Part shown: one piece after another, positions 15,508 to 27,079 of the stretch | Layout of the letters: every line of letters starts with the position of its first letter | Position numbering within the stretch: position 1 is the first letter of the stretch | Source of the DNA: a virus | Strand: one strand, 5' to 3' | Length of the DNA stretch: 33,504 bases | Virus record (IMG/VR): IMGVR_UViG_3300025122_006649 | Span: 1 to 33,504 of that record | Position numbers and translations under genes: made by a program | The notes under the pieces: generated by a model | Told to the model about the DNA's origin: nothing | The model's database searches: none | Seen by the model: the letters and a program-made list of their open reading frames with translations, nothing else

Positions 15508-15844
15508 TTGGCGCTCCTTGTGGTTCGAGGTCCAAGTGTGGATCGAGATAGTCAGCGGTTATCAATGCGTTGCGTAACATCGCAAACAACCGATCGGCAG
15601 GCAGATACTTTTTCGCACTGAGCAAATCTCTAAGATCGCACCGGGCACGATGCCGATCGACAATTTCAGTCAATCCTTCATCCGCTTTTTTCATCCGGTT
15701 TCTCGCTATGCGCTTGCCGAGCTTCTTATCGAAATGGTCAACTGGATTGCACAACGACCATCCGACATGCCGGCAAGAAGTAGCTACTATGACGCCGTAT
15801 GGCACACGGGATGCGTCACGTAGGTATCTGATATATTCTTTCAT
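15500..15844 (-). CDS. Small phage protein with GWSLCNP motif
   Basis: The 114-residue product contains 'VGWSLCNPVDHFDKKLGKRIARNR' -like sequence (residues 27 onward), a motif I associate with small phage proteins that sit near recombination genes; function is unknown. It has its own promoter (15862-15890) and ribosome site (AAGGAGAG). Residues 24-35 are encoded by a 37-bp sequence that is repeated exactly in the YqaJ gene. The C-terminal part is helical and basic. Confidence 0.65.
   Translation of the reverse strand: MKEYIRYLRDASRVPYGVIVATSCRHVGWSLCNPVDHFDKKLGKRIARNRMKKADEGLTEIVDRHRARCDLRDLLSAKKYLPADRLFAMLRNALITADYLDPHLDLEPQGAPNA
15741..15777 (+). repeat. 37-bp direct repeat, copy 1
   Basis: These 37 bases recur exactly at 16732-16768 in the same orientation; bases on either side differ. 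Read leftward both copies encode CRHVGWSLCNPV in frame. This copy sits in the 114-residue gene, where the motif fits the rest of the protein. Confidence 0.9.
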
Positions 15845-15987: not shown

Positions 15988-17177
15988 CACTCATCCCCCT
16001 TCCAAACCACATTCACGCTCCGGCTGCCTTTCTTTTCCTCGATGCATTTTTTGCGTTTGAGGTATCGATACGTAACTGGGTCGTTGTTTCTGATTTTCGA
16101 CAACGCTATTGTTTTTTCGCTCGGCTTCACGACTTTCCATTTTGCGATACAACCTTCACCGTCGCGGATCTCGGGTCGGTCCTGCAATACAACAGAGAGA
16201 CCATCCCGGGCATCCTCTTTCATTTCCTTCCATCGCTTTTCGTTCGATTCGGCCTGGCGATATTTCTTTGCGAGCTCAAGAGCGCTGTCACGTTCCTCGC
16301 CGTTCAGGATGGCGAAGTCGTCTCCCAACACCGGATACAACGCCATGATATCCTTCGCGTTCATCGCGAGATCGGCGGGGGGCGTATCGTTGGCTATGTG
16401 CCACACCATTTTACCGGCAAGGTCAATGAGCTTGGCTTGGTGGCTACGGTTCGCTCGGATGTGCCATACATGGAACTGCGAGGTATCGTGCAGCAATGCG
16501 AGATAGGCGTCCTCAACTTCCATCAACGCAAGCTGGAATTGGATCTGCATGTAATGCTTCAAGGGTATGCCCTGCCATTCGGCGAGCTTGAAGTCATAGC
16601 CTTTGACAATCGAACCTTCCGGGCGTTTCGCTGCCCATGATATGGCGCTTTTTGCTTCTACCAAGAACGGACGGTCGAATCGGACGGTGATGCCGAGAGA
16701 GGATGTTTTGAGATACGTGTACTCAGTAGTGACTGGATTGCACAACGACCATCCGACATGCCGGCAAGCGGGGTCGAATACCAAGTCTGGGTGTACTATC
16801 ATGCCGTCTCGATATACTTGGACAGAGTGCAAGAACGGCGGTGCTTGGTAATCACCTGCATTCACATCGGTCATGTACTCATATGCTCGGCGGTTGGCAG
16901 TCATGGCATTTGCGCTTTCTGCTCCTGCGAACTCACGCACGAACACCTCAAGAATCTTACCCTCAAGATAGTGCCCCATCTCGGCGGGCAGCCCTGCTGG
17001 TTCACGCTCAAGCCGTCCTGTCTTTTCTTGCCAGACAGTTATCGGCGTACGTCCGTAGCCTGCAAGCGTCTCGGTGGGTTTCTCGGGATTGGGTATCAGC
17101 GCGGGTATGTCCGATGCGCCGATACGTCCGCTGCGTTCCTTGAGGAAATCGCCGGTGATAAACCAGTATGATCTCAT
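15987..17177 (-). CDS. YqaJ-family recombination exonuclease
   Basis: The 396-residue product matches the YqaJ/lambda-exonuclease-like PD-(D/E)XK fold: 'RSGRIGASDIPALIPNPE', 'TPITVWQEKTGRL', 'AEMGHYLEGKILEVF', metal ligand region 'IVHPDLVFD' (about residues 127-135) and 'FLVEAKSA' (171-178). It degrades one strand of a duplex to give RecT a substrate. The start overlaps the stop of the upstream gene (ATGA). Between the two catalytic motifs lies an added stretch (about residues 136-165) that contains a 37-bp sequence identical to part of the neighbouring gene; it may alter or disable the enzyme. Confidence 0.8.
   Translation of the reverse strand: MRSYWFITGDFLKERSGRIGASDIPALIPNPEKPTETLAGYGRTPITVWQEKTGRLEREPAGLPAEMGHYLEGKILEVFVREFAGAESANAMTANRRAYEYMTDVNAGDYQAPPFLHSVQVYRDGMIVHPDLVFDPACRHVGWSLCNPVTTEYTYLKTSSLGITVRFDRPFLVEAKSAISWAAKRPEGSIVKGYDFKLAEWQGIPLKHYMQIQFQLALMEVEDAYLALLHDTSQFHVWHIRANRSHQAKLIDLAGKMVWHIANDTPPADLAMNAKDIMALYPVLGDDFAILNGEERDSALELAKKYRQAESNEKRWKEMKEDARDGLSVVLQDRPEIRDGEGCIAKWKVVKPSEKTIALSKIRNNDPVTYRYLKRKKCIEEKKGSRSVNVVWKGDE
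16732..16768 (+). repeat. 37-bp direct repeat, copy 2
   Basis: Exact copy of 15741-15777, here inside the YqaJ gene between its catalytic Asp and Glu-x-Lys motifs. The encoded residues fit poorly into a nuclease of this family, so this copy is the likely acceptor of a local copying event. Confidence 0.9.
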
Positions 17178-17727: not shown

Positions 17728-17757
17728 ATGGTAATGCCATGCCGGTGTTATAGTCAA
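17728..17757 (-). promoter_or_regulatory. Leftward promoter with 13-bp palindrome
   Basis: Read leftward, TTGACT (17757-17752), 18 bases, TACCAT (17733-17728). The near-palindrome ATGGTAATGCCAT covers 17728-17740 and so overlaps the -10 box. It drives the zinc protein and recombination genes. The -35 overlaps the stop of the Mom-like gene. Confidence 0.7.
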
Positions 17758-18344
17758 GGAGGGTAATTAGGTTTCGGGCCGCCATCCCATTTGCGCGATT
17801 GCCAACCACACATAGATGTAAGCAGCTTCCTGTCTCGTTTCGTTCCTGTCGCTATCCAATATCGTATTTTCGATTTGCGCCTGACTTTCGTATACTTGCC
17901 TGATCGGAATGCGTCTCTGCTATGTTTGCCGGTGACTACATAATCATACCTTGGCGTTTTCCGGTCCATGTCCGTCCATTCGGCATAATGGAAATTCATA
18001 GCCCTATAGACCGTCCCGTAATGTCCATGCGCTGTGTCTGCATACGAAGCTATTAACCGTGGAGGCATTTGCCTTAATGCTGACGCGACAAATTGAGATG
18101 CCGTATTGCGCGGCAAATCGTCGCGTATCCACAATCGGCTCAACTCCAATACGCATGATGGGTCAGTAGGGCAAACGCTCTTCTGCATATGCCTCGATGC
18201 GGGACAGCCAAACGTAACCGCGCCGACTATCTCACCCTGCACGTATAACGCGAACGCGTACGACGCGCCCACTTTACGATGCATGTAGTGATTCCTGACG
18301 ATATACGGCATTACGATCTGGCTCGGCACGAGGAGAGCGTTCAC
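17754..18344 (-). CDS. mom: Mom-like DNA adenine modification protein
   Basis: The 196-residue product shows the hallmarks of the phage Mu Mom family, a GNAT-fold enzyme that converts DNA adenine to a carbamoylmethyl form and blocks many restriction enzymes: 'NHYMHRK' (18-24), 'YVQGEIVGAVTFGCPAS' (34-50), 'LELSRLWI' (66-73), 'LPRNTASQFVASAL' (77-90), 'SYADTAHGHYGTVYRAMNFHY' region (100-120) and a basic C-terminus. The GTG start follows directly on the stop of the upstream gene. In Mu a small zinc protein, Com, activates mom translation; the upstream gene here has no zinc motif, so control must differ. Function rests on family motifs. Confidence 0.85.
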   Translation of the reverse strand: MNALLVPSQIVMPYIVRNHYMHRKVGASYAFALYVQGEIVGAVTFGCPASRHMQKSVCPTDPSCVLELSRLWIRDDLPRNTASQFVASALRQMPPRLIASYADTAHGHYGTVYRAMNFHYAEWTDMDRKTPRYDYVVTGKHSRDAFRSGKYTKVRRKSKIRYWIATGTKRDRKLLTSMCGWQSRKWDGGPKPNYPP

Positions 18345-18566
18345 TCAGAACAATTCCAAATTATCAGCGGTATCGTCGGCAGGCAAGGGCTCATCGCGAG
18401 ACATATCAACGATACTCTCAACATCACCACCATGAGATTCTACCCATCGACAAAGCAATGTATTCCTTGCAGTCAGTAGGGTGTTACGTCCCTTGATAGC
18501 CAGGTAGTCATGGTGCAGTTTCGAGAGTCTTGATTCCAGTTCGGCTATTGTGGTTTGCTTTGCCAT
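18345..18566 (-). CDS. Small coiled-coil protein
   Basis: The 73-residue product has a heptad-like N-terminal half (TTIAELESRLSKLHHDYLAIK) and an acidic C-terminus. Its ATG overlaps the helicase stop (TAATG) and its stop abuts the GTG of the Mom-like gene, so the three are translationally linked. It lacks the Cys pairs of Mu Com. Function unknown. Confidence 0.6.
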   Translation of the reverse strand: MAKQTTIAELESRLSKLHHDYLAIKGRNTLLTARNTLLCRWVESHGGDVESIVDMSRDEPLPADDTADNLELF

Positions 18567-21223
18567 TACAGAAAATTCTCCACCGCTTCGGTAAACAGCT
18601 TCCGACGATTGCCCTTGAATAGCTCTGCATGCAACACCGCCGCCTTTTCCGGTGCGGTTATCGGACGGGTACTCTCGGCCTTCCGCCTTTCATCGATTTG
18701 CTTTTGCTGCACTGACATCACCTTGGCCTCGATCTCCGCTGCCTGTCCGTCCGAGCGCACCGCCACGAGTCGACCGTCAACCATTGCCGGCAAGAACCTT
18801 TGCATGTGCTTCCCCTCGGCATCATCGCCAAGCACGGCGCCGCAGAAATGGCACGTCACGTTTTGCGCAGCATTCATCACTCCGCACCTACCGCACATCT
18901 GCATAGGATCGAGGTCAACCACTGGCTCGGGCGCATCGTCGCCACCATCGCCTTCAAGCGACCATACAAAGTCACGATCGGGCATACCGTGGATTACTGA
19001 GTTCCCTACGAAATCTGCGCAGATGTAGAAATCTTTTCCTTCGACAACGCGCTCAGCACGTCCGTTAAACTGAGTCCAGATGATAGGACTAAGGGTTCGT
19101 CTAAGCCAAAGGACACCGTACAAACCATGGATAGACATCCCCTCGATTCCGATACCGACTGTACAAATACCGTTGTTTTTGCCCGCGGCAACAGCTCGCA
19201 AAATTCTTTTACGCTCATGCTTTGCAAGATTGGAGTGGAGGTGTTCAAAGTGCCATCCTTTTTCGGCGAATGCCTCGGTCATCATTTTCGCGTGTTCGTA
19301 GGTTGCACACGGTACGATCACCGGTCGACCTTCGAATGTGCGGGTATAGTAGTCTACCACGTTGCCTACGATTGTAGGCGCTCCGAGTATTTCGGCCTGT
19401 GCTTTCGTGTCGAAGTCGTCGCCGTTTTTCGGTACGTTCTGGCACCATTGCTCGGGGAGCACGAGGAGTGGTTTGGTTATGAAGCCCTGTTCGATAGCTT
19501 GGCTTTTCGAGATGGTCTGTACGACATCGGTATAGAGGTGCTCGAAGCTGCGCAAGCTGCCGTGATAGAGGGTGGCTGTCAGTCCGAGGCGTAGGGCGTT
19601 GGGGAAGTAGCGGTATATCGATTCCCAGCTTGACGCGAGAGCATGCTGACAGTTATGAGACAATATCCCGTTCGTGAAATAGCAATGGTTCGTCTCTACT
19701 TCGACGTCGTAAACCTGTTGGACATCGCGTTTTGAGATTCCAATTATACGCTCGTATTTTGTATTGCATGCACTCCGGAACGAATCCTTTGATTTCGTCG
19801 AGAAACTTTCTCGAAGCCTGAGAGCGAAGACCGACAAAAAAGAGGTCTTTCCTTTTTTCCTCTCTGATATAGCAAGGCCCGTAGCGATCTTGAAAGAAAT
19901 CTTTAATAGTACAGTTCTCATCATAGCTATAGCCGTGTGTGTGGAAATCGACCATATTTGAAATACACGATCCGTCATCGCAGAACCACCACGCCAACCC
20001 TTCGATTGTGAGCCTGTTAAGAGCTTCGATTGTAACTCGCTTTTTCCCGCCCTTGATGAGTAGTTCATGTATCGGCAGTAAGATCGGAAGACTCCGAGAG
20101 CGCCCAACAATTGAAGTCTTGCCATATCCAGCATTTGGGGTGATACGGGTTTCAAGTCCGATAGTTGATAGGTTTGCGGCCTTGTATTCGGCCCATTCTC
20201 GTTGAGGCAACCCATGAGTCCACGTAATGCGCGGAGATTTGCTACGTGCTGCGGGGAAACCAATACTCGAATCGCCAAGCAATGTGCCAATGATTTTCCC
20301 GATTTCCTCATTGGATAAAACGGCATTCCATCCTGGTTGGTGCTTGTCGTGCCCTTTCCGATATTTATTGTATCCGCACGAGCTTCGCATTTTTCTATAT
20401 GATTCAAACTTCCCACATCTCGGAAGTGCATTTTCACCGCATCCGCATTGGCATAACGGTGCTTCGTCAAGTATCTCTTGATATATCTTTCGCCATTCTG
20501 ATTCGGTCCTGTGCGCGTATGTCCGGTGACCTGGTATCCAAACCGGCGAATATCCTTTCTTGTTTCGCTCTGTTCGTTGGCCACATCCGCATTTACAAAG
20601 ATTTCGTCTTTCGATGTCAGGGTTCCAGCTGTCTGCCATCCGTGCTCCCCGTAGATAAGGTGGTCATGAGTGCAGCGCAGTCGCCTACCGGATTCGGTTG
20701 TAATCTCGATAATGTCTCGCTTGCCGCGAGGGATGAACTGAACAACTCGACTGTATTTTTTACGCACTCCATCATACGTCAGTATATACTTAGGGTTGTG
20801 TTGTGTCCATTCGTCTATGCGGATCGGGCCGAATTCGGTGTCAACCATTGTGTCACCGGTAACGCACTCATCGGTGATTATTTCGTCCGGGTATATCGAT
20901 TCTTGGATGTAGCCGAGTTGGTTAATCAAAGACAGCGCCATGCACACATACACCATGCGCCCTTTTCCTCGTACACCCTCATCATTGATATACCCCGGGT
21001 TCAAGCCATGCTCAGAAAGCACCTTCATCCATTCGGCGAATATTTCCATCTGAGGTACGATCACATACACGCGTCGGTTCAGTGAGTTACGGTCATCGAT
21101 GAGCGCTGCTGCGGTGTATGTTTTGCCGGTCCCGCATGGTGCGAGATAGACCGGGTGCCTTGAGTTGTTGAGTAGCATGTTGCAGATTCGGCGTGCTTCG
21201 AGTTGGTATGCTCTGTTGCCCAT
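18566..21223 (-). CDS. SF2 DNA helicase interrupted by an intein
   Basis: I place the start at the ATG at 21223, just before the conserved 'MGNRAYQLEARRICNMLLNN'; the longer frame to 21484 runs through the upstream HTH gene. Motif I is 'APCGTGKT' (residues 28-35). Motif II is split: '..EIITDE' then, after the intein, 'CQHA', which rejoin to DECQH. Motif III is 'GLTATLYHG', and the C-terminal helicase half has 'NNGICTVGIGIEGMSIHG' and 'QFNGRAERV'. A zinc ribbon follows (CGRCG...CHFC). After splicing the helicase would have 480 residues. There is no ribosome site; a promoter -10 lies five bases before the ATG, so the message may be leaderless. It probably acts in phage replication or recombination. 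Confidence 0.85.
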   Translation of the reverse strand: MGNRAYQLEARRICNMLLNNSRHPVYLAPCGTGKTYTAAALIDDRNSLNRRVYVIVPQMEIFAEWMKVLSEHGLNPGYINDEGVRGKGRMVYVCMALSLINQLGYIQESIYPDEIITDECVTGDTMVDTEFGPIRIDEWTQHNPKYILTYDGVRKKYSRVVQFIPRGKRDIIEITTESGRRLRCTHDHLIYGEHGWQTAGTLTSKDEIFVNADVANEQSETRKDIRRFGYQVTGHTRTGPNQNGERYIKRYLTKHRYANADAVKMHFRDVGSLNHIEKCEARADTINIGKGTTSTNQDGMPFYPMRKSGKSLAHCLAIRVLVSPQHVANLRALRGLMGCLNENGPNTRPQTYQLSDLKPVSPQMLDMARLQLLGALGVFRSYCRYMNYSSRAGKSELQSKLLTGSQSKGWRGGSAMTDRVFQIWSISTHTAIAMMRTVLLKISFKIATGLAISERKKGKTSFLSVFALRLRESFSTKSKDSFRSACNTKYERIIGISKRDVQQVYDVEVETNHCYFTNGILSHNCQHALASSWESIYRYFPNALRLGLTATLYHGSLRSFEHLYTDVVQTISKSQAIEQGFITKPLLVLPEQWCQNVPKNGDDFDTKAQAEILGAPTIVGNVVDYYTRTFEGRPVIVPCATYEHAKMMTEAFAEKGWHFEHLHSNLAKHERKRILRAVAAGKNNGICTVGIGIEGMSIHGLYGVLWLRRTLSPIIWTQFNGRAERVVEGKDFYICADFVGNSVIHGMPDRDFVWSLEGDGGDDAPEPVVDLDPMQMCGRCGVMNAAQNVTCHFCGAVLGDDAEGKHMQRFLPAMVDGRLVAVRSDGQAAEIEAKVMSVQQKQIDERRKAESTRPITAPEKAAVLHAELFKGNRRKLFTEAVENFL
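19652..20866 (-). mobile_element. Intein in helicase motif II
   Basis: The 405-residue intein starts at Cys1 (codon 20866-20864; CVTGDTMVDTEFG = block A), has block B with the T-x-x-H pattern (CTHDHLIY) followed by 'GWQTAGTLTSKDEIFV', and ends with block F 'VYDVEVETNHCYF' and block G 'NGILSHN' before a +1 Cys (19651-19649). All splicing residues are present: Cys1, block B Thr/His, penultimate His, terminal Asn, +1 Cys. About 290 residues between the splicing halves show no homing endonuclease motif in this frame; that stretch is the out-of-frame reading of a nested endonuclease gene. The insertion within the DECQH box is a typical conserved intein site. Confidence 0.92.
19653..20639 (-). CDS. 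LAGLIDADG homing endonuclease nested out of frame in the intein
   Basis: The 328-residue product begins at an ATG (20639) with GGGGAG five bases upstream. It has two N-terminal CxCGCG...GH zinc-type modules ('LCKCGCGQRTE...IPGHR', 'LCQCGCGENA...RKGHD'), then LAGLIDADG motif 1 (IGKIIGTLLGDSSIG, 113-127) and motif 2 (TIEGLAWWFCDDGS, 211-224), each with its catalytic Asp. It ends with 'VPECMQYKIRAYNW' and a TAA that lies across the Ser-His-Asn codons of intein block G. It is shifted by one frame from the intein and overlaps both block B and block F/G. It would cut intein-less helicase alleles and so spread the intein. See findings. Confidence 0.9.
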   Translation of the reverse strand: MADSWNPDIERRNLCKCGCGQRTERNKKGYSPVWIPGHRTYAHRTESEWRKIYQEILDEAPLCQCGCGENALPRCGKFESYRKMRSSCGYNKYRKGHDKHQPGWNAVLSNEEIGKIIGTLLGDSSIGFPAARSKSPRITWTHGLPQREWAEYKAANLSTIGLETRITPNAGYGKTSIVGRSRSLPILLPIHELLIKGGKKRVTIEALNRLTIEGLAWWFCDDGSCISNMVDFHTHGYSYDENCTIKDFFQDRYGPCYIREEKRKDLFFVGLRSQASRKFLDEIKGFVPECMQYKIRAYNWNLKTRCPTGLRRRSRDEPLLFHERDIVS

Positions 21224-21228
21224 ATGAT

Positions 21229-21257
21229 ATGGTAATGCTATAGCGTGTATTCGGCAA
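21229..21257 (-). promoter_or_regulatory. Leftward promoter before the helicase
   Basis: Read leftward, TTGCCG (21257-21252), 17 bases, TACCAT (21234-21229), with the near-palindrome ATGGTAATGCTAT at 21229-21241. The helicase ATG begins five bases after the -10, so transcription would begin at or next to the start codon. Confidence 0.6.
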
Positions 21258-21462
21258 CCGTAGCCGTGCCGGATCTGGTTTTCACTTCGATGAGTGTCGA
21301 CTTGATTGCATAGCCCGATGCCTTGAGGTCGTACACTCGAGCAGATAGCCGAGCAACACCGAGTTCGAGGAATGCGTCCATTGGTGTTATGGCGCCGTAG
21401 CGGTTGAGATAATCCAAAACCTTCCGGCCTTGTGGTGACGGGGTGGGGAATAGATCGGTCAT
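21238..21462 (-). CDS. Small winged/helix-turn-helix protein
   Basis: From the ATG at 21462 (ribosome site GGGGAAGAG just upstream) the product has 74 residues: 'GRKVLDYLNRYGAITPMDAFLELGVARLSARVYDLKASGY' is a common phage helix-turn-helix layout with an 'ITPMDAFLELG...L..RVYDLK' recognition core, then a beta wing ('IEVKTRSGTATVAEYTL'). It probably binds DNA. Its ATG overlaps the stop of a 36-residue membrane protein (ATGA). Confidence 0.75.
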   Translation of the reverse strand: MTDLFPTPSPQGRKVLDYLNRYGAITPMDAFLELGVARLSARVYDLKASGYAIKSTLIEVKTRSGTATVAEYTL

Positions 21463-21569
21463 CTCTTCCCCTTCGCCAACGCAACGACGAACCAAATCAG
21501 GACTGCATACTCAGCGATCAGCGCGAGCATGGGTACTATGAAAATTAATACTATGTCAGAGAGTTTCAC
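21459..21569 (-). CDS. 36-residue small membrane protein
   Basis: A GTG-started gene with a strong GGGAGG site encodes MKLSDIVLIFIVPMLALIAEYAVLIWFVVALAKGKR. It is almost entirely one long or two short membrane helices with a basic C-terminus. The stop overlaps the start of the HTH gene (ATGA), supporting translation. Function unknown; such peptides are often membrane or exclusion factors. Confidence 0.6.
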   Translation of the reverse strand: MKLSDIVLIFIVPMLALIAEYAVLIWFVVALAKGKR

Positions 21570-24142: not shown

Positions 24143-25300
24143 TTATCCTTTGATTACGCCAAGCGGCGTGAGTTCTGTTTTGATTTCTACGAGGTCGCTC
24201 TGTGCTACCATGACAGCGTCGATGTCTTTGTATGCACCGGATGCCTCATCAAGATCCTTTGCATTGCGAATACCATGCACTATGCCTTGGTCGTCGAGTC
24301 GCTTGATTTCAGCAGCAAGGTCAAGTTCGCGCGTTGCTTGCTTGCGGCCCATCCGGCGCCCGGCACCGTGAGAGCATGAGTTGAAGCTCTGCGGATTGCC
24401 TTTGCCTTGTACGATATACGACTTCGTTCCTTGCGAGCCAGGGATAATCCCGATGGTATCTTCACGGGCAAGCGTTGCGCCTTTGCGATGCACGATGACG
24501 TTCTTGCCGAAGTGATTCTCCCATGCCGCGTAGTTGTGGTGGATGTTGATATAGTTGTCATAGACGAACCCGCCAGAACCAACAACCGACTCAAAGCATT
24601 CTAACGCGCGATCAAGCATGAGTTTCCGGTTCTGATATGCGAACGATAGCGCATAGTTCATCGCTTCGAAGTATTCTTTCGCTTCTCGTGTCTCGATCGG
24701 CAGGAACGACAAATCAGGATCGGATATATCCGAATACCACCGCTCACATAACGCCTTTGCTTTGGCGTGATATTCCTTGGCTATCTTGTAGCCGAAATTA
24801 CGCGAGCCGGAATGAACCATGATCCATATCAATCCGTCCTGATCCTGTTGTATCTCTATAAAGTGGTTGCCCCCACCGAGCGTGCCGAGTTGCTTTCGTG
24901 CCGATGATAGTTTGTTCTGAATGATGCGGATATCGGGAGCGTCGTCAAAGCCGTCCCACTCTTGCGCGGTTTCGTGGTGAGCAAATCCAACCGGTATCGC
25001 TTCTCGGATCTTCCCCATGGTGGCCTTTATTTGTTCGACATCCACATTCACGATAGATGTTTTCGCGGCTATCATTCCGCACCCGATGTCGACGCCGACG
25101 CAAAACGGTAACACCGTACCCTCGGTTGCCATAACACCTCCTATGGGTAAACCGTATCCCTGATGTGCGTCAGCCATGACAGCTACATGCTTGAATATGA
25201 AAGGAATATTGGCTACGTTCTTCGCTTGTTGCAGTGCGCCCTCTTCGATATCTTCGGCCCATATTTTGATAGGCTTCTTTTCTGTCGATACAACGTTCAT
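24143..25300 (-). CDS. rtcB: RtcB-family RNA ligase
   Basis: The 385-residue product carries the full RtcB motif set: 'CVGVDIGCGM' (67-76; metal Asp71, Cys74), 'GGGNHFIEI' (142-150), 'VHSGSRNFG' (162-170; His163), 'NIHHNYA' (252-258), 'RKGAT' (272-276) and 'NSCSHGAGR' (307-315) with His311, the guanylylated residue. RtcB joins 2',3'-cyclic phosphate or 3'-phosphate ends to 5'-OH ends using GTP and Mn2+; it splices tRNA introns in archaea and animals and repairs RNA in bacteria. The gene has AAGGAG five bases upstream of the ATG. A co-oriented interrupted tRNA-like gene ends 25 bases upstream, which suggests a joint function. Confidence 0.93.
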   Translation of the reverse strand: MNVVSTEKKPIKIWAEDIEEGALQQAKNVANIPFIFKHVAVMADAHQGYGLPIGGVMATEGTVLPFCVGVDIGCGMIAAKTSIVNVDVEQIKATMGKIREAIPVGFAHHETAQEWDGFDDAPDIRIIQNKLSSARKQLGTLGGGNHFIEIQQDQDGLIWIMVHSGSRNFGYKIAKEYHAKAKALCERWYSDISDPDLSFLPIETREAKEYFEAMNYALSFAYQNRKLMLDRALECFESVVGSGGFVYDNYINIHHNYAAWENHFGKNVIVHRKGATLAREDTIGIIPGSQGTKSYIVQGKGNPQSFNSCSHGAGRRMGRKQATRELDLAAEIKRLDDQGIVHGIRNAKDLDEASGAYKDIDAVMVAQSDLVEIKTELTPLGVIKG

Positions 25301-25325
25301 GGTTACTCCTTACATTTTCGGACTC

Positions 25326-25471
25326 TGGCATCGGCAGGATTCGAACCTGCATGAGTTTGACAGCAGTCATGATTCCGCGTTTGACATCCTCAGCTTGGCA
25401 TGTAACCACAAGCGCGACTGCCACGATTTATGATGTCAACCACTGCGTCTATCCAATTCCGCCACGATGCC
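25326..25471 (-). tRNA. tRNA-like gene interrupted in the anticodon region
   Basis: Read leftward, GGCATCG (25471-25465) pairs perfectly with CGATGCC (25333-25327), followed by A as discriminator; no CCA is encoded. The D arm (25462-25445, GCG...CGC with GG in the loop) is nearly identical to bacterial tRNA-Leu D arms, and the T arm is perfect (GCAGG-TTCGAAT-CCTGC, 25350-25334). Between D and T stems lie 94 bases, versus roughly 23-40 in normal tRNAs. In them TTGACATC (25439-25432) is complementary to GATGTCAA (25388-25381), a canonical-looking loop ATCATAA (25434-25428, anticodon CAU if real) occurs, and TGAC-TGCT-GTCA (25369-25358) could be a variable arm. No single clover-leaf is compelling, so identity is not assigned. 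Confidence 0.6.
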
Positions 25472-25474
25472 ATA

Positions 25475-25500
25475 TGCGGCGCCCCGTCCGAGACGCCGCA
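25475..25500 (-). other. GC-rich hairpin before the tRNA-like gene
   Basis: TGCGGCG and CGCCGCA form a perfect 7-bp stem with a 12-base loop, ending three bases before the tRNA-like 5' end. It lacks a T-run. It could shield the precursor 5' leader or guide processing. Confidence 0.5.
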
Positions 25501-25701
25501 AGTTGAAATATGAAGCCCTACGCTATCGAACGTAAGACAGCAGCTCCTTTGTTTTCGTACATACCGCCCGCATGCGCGGTGCGGCTGTGTTCATCAGTCG
25601 GTAGCGCATTACTACTACCTGGCCGGTTGACGACGGTAATTATTTACGTCTCAGGTCCGGCCTATCTGCATCCGTAGGGACGTCAACGACGTTTGCGGTT
25701 G
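25501..25701 (-). other. Gap between the DpdA-like gene and the tRNA-like gene
   Basis: About 200 bases with no clear gene. Two tiny leftward frames occur: 22 codons starting near 25709 and 28 codons at 25523-25609 (MRYRLMNTAAPRMRAVC...). The second has only a weak AGG upstream. Several short inverted repeats are present. Nothing is called with confidence. Confidence 0.4.
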
Positions 25702-26499
25702 TCAGCATAGTGAAAATAGATCCATTTCAGAATGTCGCTTATCAGGTGATTCGATTGATTCAAAAAAAACTACTGATGCCTTTATCCTTTCGACCATGCC
25801 ATCACGATCATATGATTTGAGCAATTCATAGTCTATGCCAATGGTAAGCATATAGTCGATTACGGATTGTTTGAATGGGTCAATCTCCCATTTCCTCATT
25901 TCAGATTCATTGAATCTCAATGTGCCGATTGGCGTAATTACCATTCCGAATCTTGCCAACCTGAACGCGTATGTCCCATCAACAGAATCGAATGCATATG
26001 TGCTCATGATATGAGTGTCGAGAAACCCGAAACCGTGAATCTTTACATCGTCAGGAATATGGCGGAAGCAATGCTCGATAAAATTACACTTCTTTGGCCT
26101 TGATCCTTTGTTGATGGCAGCGATCCCTACATGCTCTGATCTATCAAGATAGAAATTCAATGTATCTATGCTGTCGTATTCATGGTATATCGGTACCGGA
26201 TTGAACCCGCAATTCAAGCTATGCTCAAATAATTCCATCGATTTTTTCTCATCGCCTATTTCGTCGAGCGCTGCGTAAATATCAATGATGCCATTGTTCA
26301 TATTGATAAACTCATGATATTTTTCGATGTCTATTGGCTTGCCTCGTTTCCATGCAACATACCCTCCTGAATCTATGAATAAGCTATCGGCCCATTTCGG
26401 ACGGTTGTATCCATGTACCTTCCTATTGAAAGCATACAATAGACCGATAGACATTCCCATTTCTATGTCATTTGGGATCGCGCTGTAGTATTTTTTCAC
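25702..26499 (-). CDS. dpdA: DpdA-like 7-deazaguanine DNA transglycosylase
   Basis: The 265-residue product has the layout of the tRNA/DNA-guanine transglycosylase superfamily: 'SLFIDSGGYVAW' (39-50; Asp43), 'YAALDEIGDEK' (75-85), 'PVPIYHEYDS' (101-110), 'HVGIAAINKG' (123-132), 'KIHGFGFLDTHIM' (153-165) and 'AFDSVDGTYAFRLARFG' (169-185) with the likely nucleophile Asp. Length and motifs fit phage DpdA enzymes, which exchange guanine in DNA for a 7-deazaguanine. It lacks the tRNA-enzyme zinc site. The YhhQ transporter gene next to it, overlapping by 32 bases, supports a deazaguanine role. The GTG start has no clear ribosome site. Confidence 0.7.
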   Translation of the reverse strand: MKKYYSAIPNDIEMGMSIGLLYAFNRKVHGYNRPKWADSLFIDSGGYVAWKRGKPIDIEKYHEFINMNNGIIDIYAALDEIGDEKKSMELFEHSLNCGFNPVPIYHEYDSIDTLNFYLDRSEHVGIAAINKGSRPKKCNFIEHCFRHIPDDVKIHGFGFLDTHIMSTYAFDSVDGTYAFRLARFGMVITPIGTLRFNESEMRKWEIDPFKQSVIDYMLTIGIDYELLKSYDRDGMVERIKASVVFFESIESPDKRHSEMDLFSLC

Positions 26500-27079
26500 G
26501 AGTGATCAAATAGAATATGGGAGTATCGATTGCTGCGATTATTAGTTTGAATACATATTGGGCGATTATCATATTCCAGATATCCGGAACGACTCCACCG
26601 AAAGCAATGAGTATGAATATCATCGTATCGATAGCTTGACTTGTCATTGTGGATAGATTGTTGCGTAGCCATTTATGCTTGCCTTTGGTCAATTTCCCTA
26701 TCACGTGGAACGACCTGACATCGATTAATTGTGATATCAAATACGCCACCATTGATCCGATGACTATTCTATAAGATGATGCGAAATATAGATTGTATGC
26801 ATCGATGCCATCCTTTGCCCATACTGGGTATGGTAATATTCCTACTAAATGGATGATCGAGACAGCGAAAGCCGACACTATGAATCCGCACCATACTAAT
26901 TGATTCGATGATTTCCGACCGTACAATTCGGAGATTATATCAGTGCCCAAAAACGTGATGGCATATACCACGAACGCACCTGGCATGATGAATTTTCCGA
27001 TTGCTACAAATCGGCTTGCTATGATATTTGCTAATACCACGCATGCGATAAATACAGATTCGATGATTTTTCTCTTCAT
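26468..27079 (-). CDS. yhhQ: YhhQ-family queuosine/7-deazaguanine precursor transporter
   Basis: The 203-residue product has about six membrane helices and family motifs 'ANIIASRFVAIG', 'YAITFLGTDIISELYGRK', 'VAYLISQLIDVRSFHVIGKLTKGKHKWLRNNLSTMTSQAIDT' and 'YVFKLIIAAIDTPIFYLI'. YhhQ proteins import preQ0/preQ1-type bases. In phages this gives the deazaguanine substrate for DNA modification. It has AGGAG upstream of the ATG and overlaps the DpdA-like gene. Confidence 0.88.
   Translation of the reverse strand: MKRKIIESVFIACVVLANIIASRFVAIGKFIMPGAFVVYAITFLGTDIISELYGRKSSNQLVWCGFIVSAFAVSIIHLVGILPYPVWAKDGIDAYNLYFASSYRIVIGSMVAYLISQLIDVRSFHVIGKLTKGKHKWLRNNLSTMTSQAIDTMIFILIAFGGVVPDIWNMIIAQYVFKLIIAAIDTPIFYLITREKILQRDPK

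Follow-up and report, generated by a model that had tools for sequence, protein, structure and literature searches.

A candidate phage tRNA-mimic RNA with a putatively pseudoknotted insert, encoded beside an rtcB gene

The 33,504-nt stretch of IMG/VR virus record IMGVR_UViG_3300025122_006649 that was analysed here (the window) carries, just upstream of a gene for the RNA ligase RtcB, a 146-nt tRNA-like element. The favoured reading, held somewhat more strongly than its negation, is that this is a phage tRNA-mimic non-coding RNA with a pseudoknotted insert, a stable decoy or scaffold that is not spliced, with RtcB as its neighbour and not its processing enzyme. A stable tRNA decoy or protein scaffold appears the likeliest function, and it overlaps the bait idea of the preliminary description, which was made from the DNA letters and their open reading frames. 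The relevant features, all on the minus strand, are as follows.

24143..25300 (-): rtcB, RNA ligase gene, 385 aa
25326..25471 (-): tRNA-like RNA gene, 146 nt, without a convincing anticodon arm
25465..25471 (-): acceptor stem, 5' strand GGCATCG, 7/7 paired with 25327-25333
25327..25333 (-): acceptor stem, 3' strand CGATGCC; discriminator A at 25326, CCA not encoded
25445..25462 (-): Leu-type D arm, GCGGAATTGGATAGACGC, one base longer than in 82 phage clusters (among the matches listed)
25444-25351 (-): segment between D and T arms, 94 nt
25432..25439 (-): helix P1, 5' strand TTGACATC, half of an inverted repeat
25381..25388 (-): helix P1, 3' strand GATGTCAA, other half of the inverted repeat
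25415..25424 (-): predicted pseudoknot helix P2, 5' strand GTGGCAGTCG, from the P1+P2 score against dinucleotide shuffles
25360..25369 (-): predicted pseudoknot helix P2, 3' strand TGACTGCTGT, crossing P1
25334..25350 (-): T arm, GCAGG-TTCGAAT-CCTGC, T stem 5/5, preceded by T at 25351

Several parts of the preliminary description are borne out by these features. The 146-nt element has the complete acceptor (7/7) and T (5/5) stems and the Leu-type D arm reported for it, as well as the 94 nt that separate the D arm from the T arm, a distance that is usually about 35-40 nt in tRNA-Leu. The 8-bp inverted repeat is present at 25439-25432 / 25388-25381, and rtcB lies on the same strand, with its start at 25300 leaving 25 bases between the two genes. 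The identification of RtcB itself is confirmed by a match to PF01139 at 2.1e-112 and by alignment to solved RtcB chains in the PDB. The T at 25351 corresponds to position 48 of the element, giving an A15-U48 pair of the Levitt type.

In an Rfam covariance search the element scores 35.1 bits against RF00005, above the tRNA gathering cut-off of 29 bits (E 6.7e-4 for the window), and its nested fold is modestly beyond that of shuffled sequences (z -1.80, 11/200). A scanner for stretched tRNAs, combining acceptor, D and T arms over 88-200 nt, matched once in reversed sequence totalling 2.9 Mb; over the rtcB loci together with the window (707 kb) it detected only this element and a near-identical pair in loci L008 and L009. 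ARAGORN calls for some caution in annotation, as its default mode overlooks both this element and the relative in Bacteroides phage BS-TP2 described below, and with introns allowed it calls the window element a spliced tRNA-Val with a 66-nt intron. Other ARAGORN "introns", in L016, L017, L027, L061, L073, L080 and L102, were set aside as overlapping ordinary tRNAs, one or two each.

Two scans of IMG/VR with a pattern of D arm, long gap and T arm were used to look for comparable elements; they provide a sample and not a census. At least 242 places in viral contigs could be parsed, of which at least 189 (in 188 loci) have an acceptor of at least 6/7 and a T stem of at least 4/5; the 53 of 242 with a weak acceptor or T stem were left out of the class counts. 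Merging of near-copies reduced 104 Leu-type elements to 82 clusters, 85 elements of another D-arm type to 70, and 26 members of a long-insert set to 19. The long-insert set comes from a third scan, with D loop and insert length like those of the window element, which gave 30 stretches. Position 15 is set by the patterns, as A for the Leu-type clusters and as G for the other type. Among the matches listed, position 48 is T in 81 of the 82 Leu-type clusters and C in 68 of the 70 clusters of the other type, so that the Levitt pair follows the D arm. To judge from these sequences, the class RNAs look as though they are built to retain a functional tRNA elbow. Of the 82 Leu-type clusters, 56 have A as discriminator (among the matches listed), and because the discriminator varies, leucine charging is not a constant trait and a fixed leucine identity is doubtful. 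The window element is, by its sequence features, a member of this large group of tRNA-like phage RNAs, which have a Leu-type elbow and lack an anticodon arm.

The surroundings of the class are varied, with HNH endonucleases, helicase and terminase among the genes that recur by eye within 3 kb and none that is constant. A DNA query with one class member returned nothing in phages, and plasmids gave no match. No report of anticodon-less phage tRNA mimics was found in the literature searched, which lay mostly outside subscription papers and bioRxiv.

The preliminary description considered, among other readings, an intron-bearing tRNA, from which some 42 bases near the anticodon would be excised and whose halves RtcB would join. 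The adjoining RtcB gene and an anticodon-like ATCATAA beside the inverted repeat speak for it, as does locus L015, where a 90-nt tRNA upstream of rtcB has a 28-nt anticodon loop reducible to CTTTAAT. It was examined with an excision test in which the anticodon stem was divided in all possible ways between the D-arm side and a 7-nt loop that has U33 and R37. In the window element no removal yields a Leu anticodon arm in the tRNA register, even at 4/5 pairs, and no convincing 5-bp stem with a 7-nt loop containing U33 is found in register. With any anticodon allowed there is a single 5/5 solution, a 4-nt removal that gives the loop ATCATAA on the stem GTGGT/ATCGT, with three G-U pairs in the stem and a 72-nt variable region left over, and 268 of 1000 shuffled window inserts also have an any-anticodon solution. 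ATCATAA fails to hold up as an anticodon loop: the proposed stem TTGAC/GTCAA, which requires a 42-nt intron, is out of register by four bases, too distant from the D arm, and no supporting relative was found among related elements.

The class behaves in the same way as the window element. A strict excision test is passed by 5 of the 82 Leu-type clusters versus 3.0 in shuffles, and a like test by 21 of the 70 clusters of the other D-arm type versus 0.1 (both among the matches listed); the latter result indicates that the test has power, and the class of the window element fails it. Removal of the insert therefore does not restore an anticodon stem and loop beyond chance in either the window element or its class. 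Given these results, and the absence of rtcB from all 30 class records chosen for inspection (see below), a spliced tRNA sealed by RtcB is very improbable for the window element. The L015 tRNA (L015:2855-2944, 56 nt upstream of rtcB) suits the splicing idea better than the window element does, as it has an intact anticodon stem around its 28-nt loop, and dropping 21 nt leaves CTTTAAT with the anticodon TTA (ochre).

A different structure is suggested for the insert by scoring a pseudoknot layout in which a helix starting just after the D arm is crossed by a second helix ending just before the T arm. The P1+P2 score of the window element is reached by 18 of 3000 dinucleotide shuffles (p about 0.006). 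Against the same kind of shuffles, and among the matches listed, 19 of the 82 Leu-type clusters reach p<=0.05 and 44 reach p<=0.2, compared with 2 and 11 of the 70 clusters of the other D-arm type. The long-insert set, which is like the window element in this respect, is not enriched for pseudoknots (1/19 at p<=0.05, 4/19 at p<=0.2). A rival fold of two hairpins in series is also somewhat enriched in the Leu-type class (12/82 at p<=0.05 and 21/82 at p<=0.2, among the matches listed), and in the window element it shows no enrichment (549/3000 shuffles).

The pattern of substitutions is mixed. Among 16 close pairs of sequences (at least 70% identity), pairing in the predicted helices survives two-sided changes in 8 of 8 cases, with 6 of 16 in a slid control; at 55% identity or more the figures are 27/44 and 72/163. 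One-sided changes are not enriched for pairing (40/220 versus 562/1458 at 55% or more, 9/22 versus 61/173 at 70% or more), and a pooled covariation count, using ordered pairs down to 55% identity and leaving one- and two-sided changes unsplit among the broken pairs, gives no support. No close relative of the window element's own insert was found, so these counts bear on helices of other class members. Taken on sequence and shuffle statistics, a pseudoknot is likely for the Leu-type class and probable for the window element.

The long-insert result also bears on whether the element could be a decayed tRNA-Leu gene with a scrambled or invaded anticodon region. Such decay would account for the lack of a convincing anticodon, for a discriminator that is not always A and for long inserts without pseudoknot enrichment. 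It is made rather unlikely by the acceptor, T stem, D arm and position 48, which are intact across many elements (the patterns themselves select the D and T arms), and by insert structure beyond chance in the main Leu-type set.

One relative of the tRNA-like element is found in a phage with a named host. Bacteroides phage BS-TP2 (PQ571275.1), whose record names B. salyersiae BG8 as host, has an unannotated 108-nt element at 19550-19657 that Rfam recognises as a tRNA (40.1 bits) and ARAGORN does not detect. Its T arm is identical to that of the window element, its acceptor differs by one base pair, and the inserts of both end in CTCAT, whereas its D arm is one base shorter and its insert is 57 nt instead of 94. 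The insert has the predicted pseudoknot GAGTA/TACTC plus GAGCTTT/AAAGCTC; as L287, a member of the class set, has an identical insert, this is no further independent case. The BS-TP2 element lies between DUF2303 and NinG genes, unlike the window element with its rtcB neighbour, and RtcB is absent from the complete 57.6-kb BS-TP2 genome.

Ordinary tRNAs do gather near phage rtcB genes. In 101 loci with 51 ordinary tRNAs, 22 of the 51 lie within 300 nt of rtcB, against a random mean of 6.2 and a maximum of 15 in 2000 draws, with rtcB ends approximate and near-copies not merged. The Leu-type class is another matter: rtcB occurs in none of 30 whole records, many of them fragments, that were hand-chosen from the first two scans, mostly for a clear pseudoknot, and that include L287 and L229. 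Over the first two scans rtcB is seen in 1 of 240 loci, and that locus is of the other D-arm type (among the matches listed). As tRNAs gather by phage rtcB, yet the chosen class records are without it, the window element is in a tRNA-type location and is not tied to RtcB; the mimic is placed where phages keep tRNAs together with a repair enzyme. With rtcB also missing from BS-TP2, an obligatory partnership of the class with RtcB is not supported, and RtcB was rejected as its common partner.

The preliminary description had proposed looking for the same tRNA-rtcB pair in related phages. No element of like build was found in the 101 related rtcB loci from viral contigs, in which a stretched tRNA upstream of rtcB occurs only in L008/L009 and in L015, and these differ in build from the window element (117 nt and about 370 nt from rtcB in the former, 90 nt and 56 nt away in the latter). 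In 80 rtcB loci from genome contigs the scanner found no stretched tRNA, and intron-mode ARAGORN made 11 candidate calls there. The L008/L009 element (L008:1265-1381, L009:2243-2359) is recognised as tRNA-like by Rfam at 40.4 bits; it adjoins an ordinary tRNA-Tyr and has, by eye, a 10-bp extended anticodon stem.

The region immediately upstream of the window element contains two further features.

25472..25701 (-): non-coding, strongly folding leader between a TGT-like gene and the element (fold z -3.59 for 25472-25720)
25475..25500 (-): GC-rich hairpin in the predicted fold, 11 pairs, loop of 4, ending 3 nt before the element

Hairpins in this position show mild enrichment in the class, at 13/82 versus 6/80 and 4/77 further upstream (among the matches listed). 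The leader (25472..25701) has no Rfam match at E<=5, and a possible second pseudoknot can be made out by eye on its minus strand (25472-25701), with GTTGACG/CGTCAAC crossed by GGCCG/CGGCC. Visual inspection suggested hammerhead-like strings in L006 and in the sequence upstream of the window element; these were discarded, as Rfam finds no ribozyme there at E<=5. A terminator-like site at 25538-25515 lies upstream of the element and makes its joint transcription with the preceding genes unsure, and promoter-like sites nearby are at chance level (2 found, 2.3 expected).

The position of the element allows it to be seen as a cis-acting leader of rtcB, in which tRNA-processing enzymes or a tRNA nuclease would cut the tRNA-like fold and so set rtcB expression. 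The shared strand, the 25 nt from element to start codon and the strong hairpin immediately before the element are consistent with such a role. However, relatives such as that in BS-TP2 have other genes downstream and no rtcB, and promoter-like sites do not exceed the chance expectation given above; a cis-acting leader is therefore considered unlikely.

Two genes of separate interest lie upstream of the leader, a queuine tRNA-ribosyltransferase-like gene (25702-26499, minus strand, phrog_887) directly upstream of the tRNA-like RNA and an adjoining Vut_1 transporter gene (26468-27079, minus strand, Pfam). Together they look like a DpdA-type 7-deazaguanine DNA modification set, with DpdA and QueT as the corresponding names. 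A second DNA-modification gene in this phage encodes a Mom-like protein (17754-18344, minus strand, phrog_1384). Elsewhere in the window, a helicase ORF (18566-21484, minus strand) is interrupted by an intein-like segment, and an ORF overlapping this split helicase (19653-20639) appears by eye to be homing endonuclease-like. An identical 37-nt sequence (CRHVGWSLCNPV) occurs in the same frame in two neighbouring ORFs, at 15741-15777 and 16732-16768; one of the two is a RecE-like exonuclease, and no exact copy of the repeat was found in viral contigs.

Other phage tRNAs with insertions were also seen, in at least 22 loci of the other D-arm type (L111, L115, L118, L144, L153, L156, L164, L167, L172, L202 and others). 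These are tRNAs with clean 40-52-nt insertions at 28/29 or 29/30, on the 5' side of the anticodon stem, whose exact removal restores an anticodon arm with varied anticodons; the insertions often contain a hairpin and ACAGCAA. A broader scan for splits after 1-4 stem bases, covering these 22 loci plus 8 others that share the neighbour gene, found 34 inserted tRNAs, at most two per locus. None was found in the 22 loci when their sequence was reversed, nor in the rtcB loci and the window, and loci labelled type b contain 2 in 1.1 Mb.

DUF2828 is encoded in 15 of the 22 insertion records and TROVE/Ro60 in five others, bringing the total to 20/22, and where both are visible the DUF2828 or TROVE/Ro60 gene is often within about 3 kb of the inserted tRNA. 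DUF2828 would appear to be Ro60-like. The inserted tRNAs represent a separate system, in which they may either be spliced with a Ro60-type partner or bear a Y-RNA-like module. A T4-type Rnl1 was considered as a partner of these type-a insertions and set aside, as it is present in only 2 of the 22 records. No report of phage tRNAs with insertions beside Ro60 or DUF2828 was found in the literature searched, again mostly outside subscription papers and bioRxiv.

A third group of stretched tRNAs, in L163, L178, L187, L188, L200, L203, L211 and L217, has GGTRAAGGRCC-like insert motifs, and no neighbour gene common to at least three loci included loci of this group. The L111 phage contig is rich in both ordinary and interrupted tRNAs and also has a tmRNA-like gene (L111:7967-8218; cyano_tmRNA 116 bits, permuted tmRNA 81 bits).

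For the window element as a tRNA mimic, a possible course of events can be outlined. Defences that cut tRNAs are a growing area of phage biology, and phages counter them with tRNAs and ligases. The parts that appear to be retained, a seven-pair acceptor stem, a T arm, a Leu-type D arm and the elbow contacts, are those recognised by enzymes that process or bind tRNA, and a structured insert, probably an H-type pseudoknot, would take the place of the anticodon and variable arms. The element may be transcribed with or ahead of rtcB and trimmed by host tRNA-processing enzymes, a step that would release the rtcB message as well; by analogy with T4 species 1 RNA it may persist as a stable RNA. More tentatively, it could be a decoy or scaffold for some protein that holds tRNAs by their elbow or acceptor end, such as a tRNA-cutting defence nuclease, with RtcB perhaps resealing genuine cut tRNAs from the same tRNA-maintenance region. 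A bolder version, in which the elements form a widespread unnamed class of anticodon-less tRNAs whose Leu-type elbow and acceptor stem bear a pseudoknot and serve to be gripped by tRNA-binding proteins, the window mimic absorbs or blocks a nuclease of tRNA-cutting immunity while RtcB reseals the cut tRNAs, and T4 species 1 RNA is of the same kind, is speculative and judged doubtful.

Three known systems may be compared with the window element. Intron-bearing tRNAs of archaea and eukaryotes, which are joined by RtcB in archaea and animals, resemble it in combining extra sequence in a tRNA gene with an RtcB ligase; unlike them, the window element has no anticodon arm that is restored beyond chance.

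YrlA, a bacterial Y RNA, is likewise a tRNA-like RNA encoded beside rtcB, and in Salmonella the layout is rsr-yrlBA-rtcBA (PMC7790460). Hughes et al. consider YrlA a possible competitive inhibitor of an anticodon nuclease (PMC7790460). The shared layout would fit a true Y RNA of the YrlA kind, partner of a Ro60 encoded elsewhere. Against this, the YrlA model (RF02553) scores 10.7 bits over 17 positions of the element with a cut-off of 69, the 33.5-kb window record (a fragment) has no match to TROVE or DUF2828, and the chosen class records contain TROVE in 1/30 and DUF2828 in 0/30. A Y RNA identity is accordingly quite improbable.

A close structural parallel to the proposed tRNA mimic may be species 1 RNA (rnaC) of T4 and other T-even phages, known since the 1970s. 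It is described as a late RNA of unknown function (PMC9697503). It is annotated as a small and stable RNA and is 139 nt long; no rnaC record is among the blastn matches of the window element at E<=1. The gene has tRNA genes as neighbours, and the 4-kb stretch inspected has no annotated rtcB. Its predicted fold is similar in that an acceptor stem and T arm close a domain consisting of P1 and then a crossing P2 just before the T arm, and the window element likewise has an acceptor and T arm closing a predicted P1/P2 domain (p about 0.006 in the window). It differs in having no Leu-type D arm and in forming P2 with the loop of a second hairpin.

In nine T4-like phages, compensatory changes are seen in P1, the P3 hairpin and the T stem, with the strands picked by pattern for this count. 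The acceptor also stays paired when the best 7-mer per sequence is taken, at only 5/7 in phage Moon, and P2 (TTGACG/CGTCAA) is invariant in 9/9. A class with one member in a phage whose host strain is named, and with a structural counterpart in T4, makes the old question of T4 species 1 RNA directly testable.
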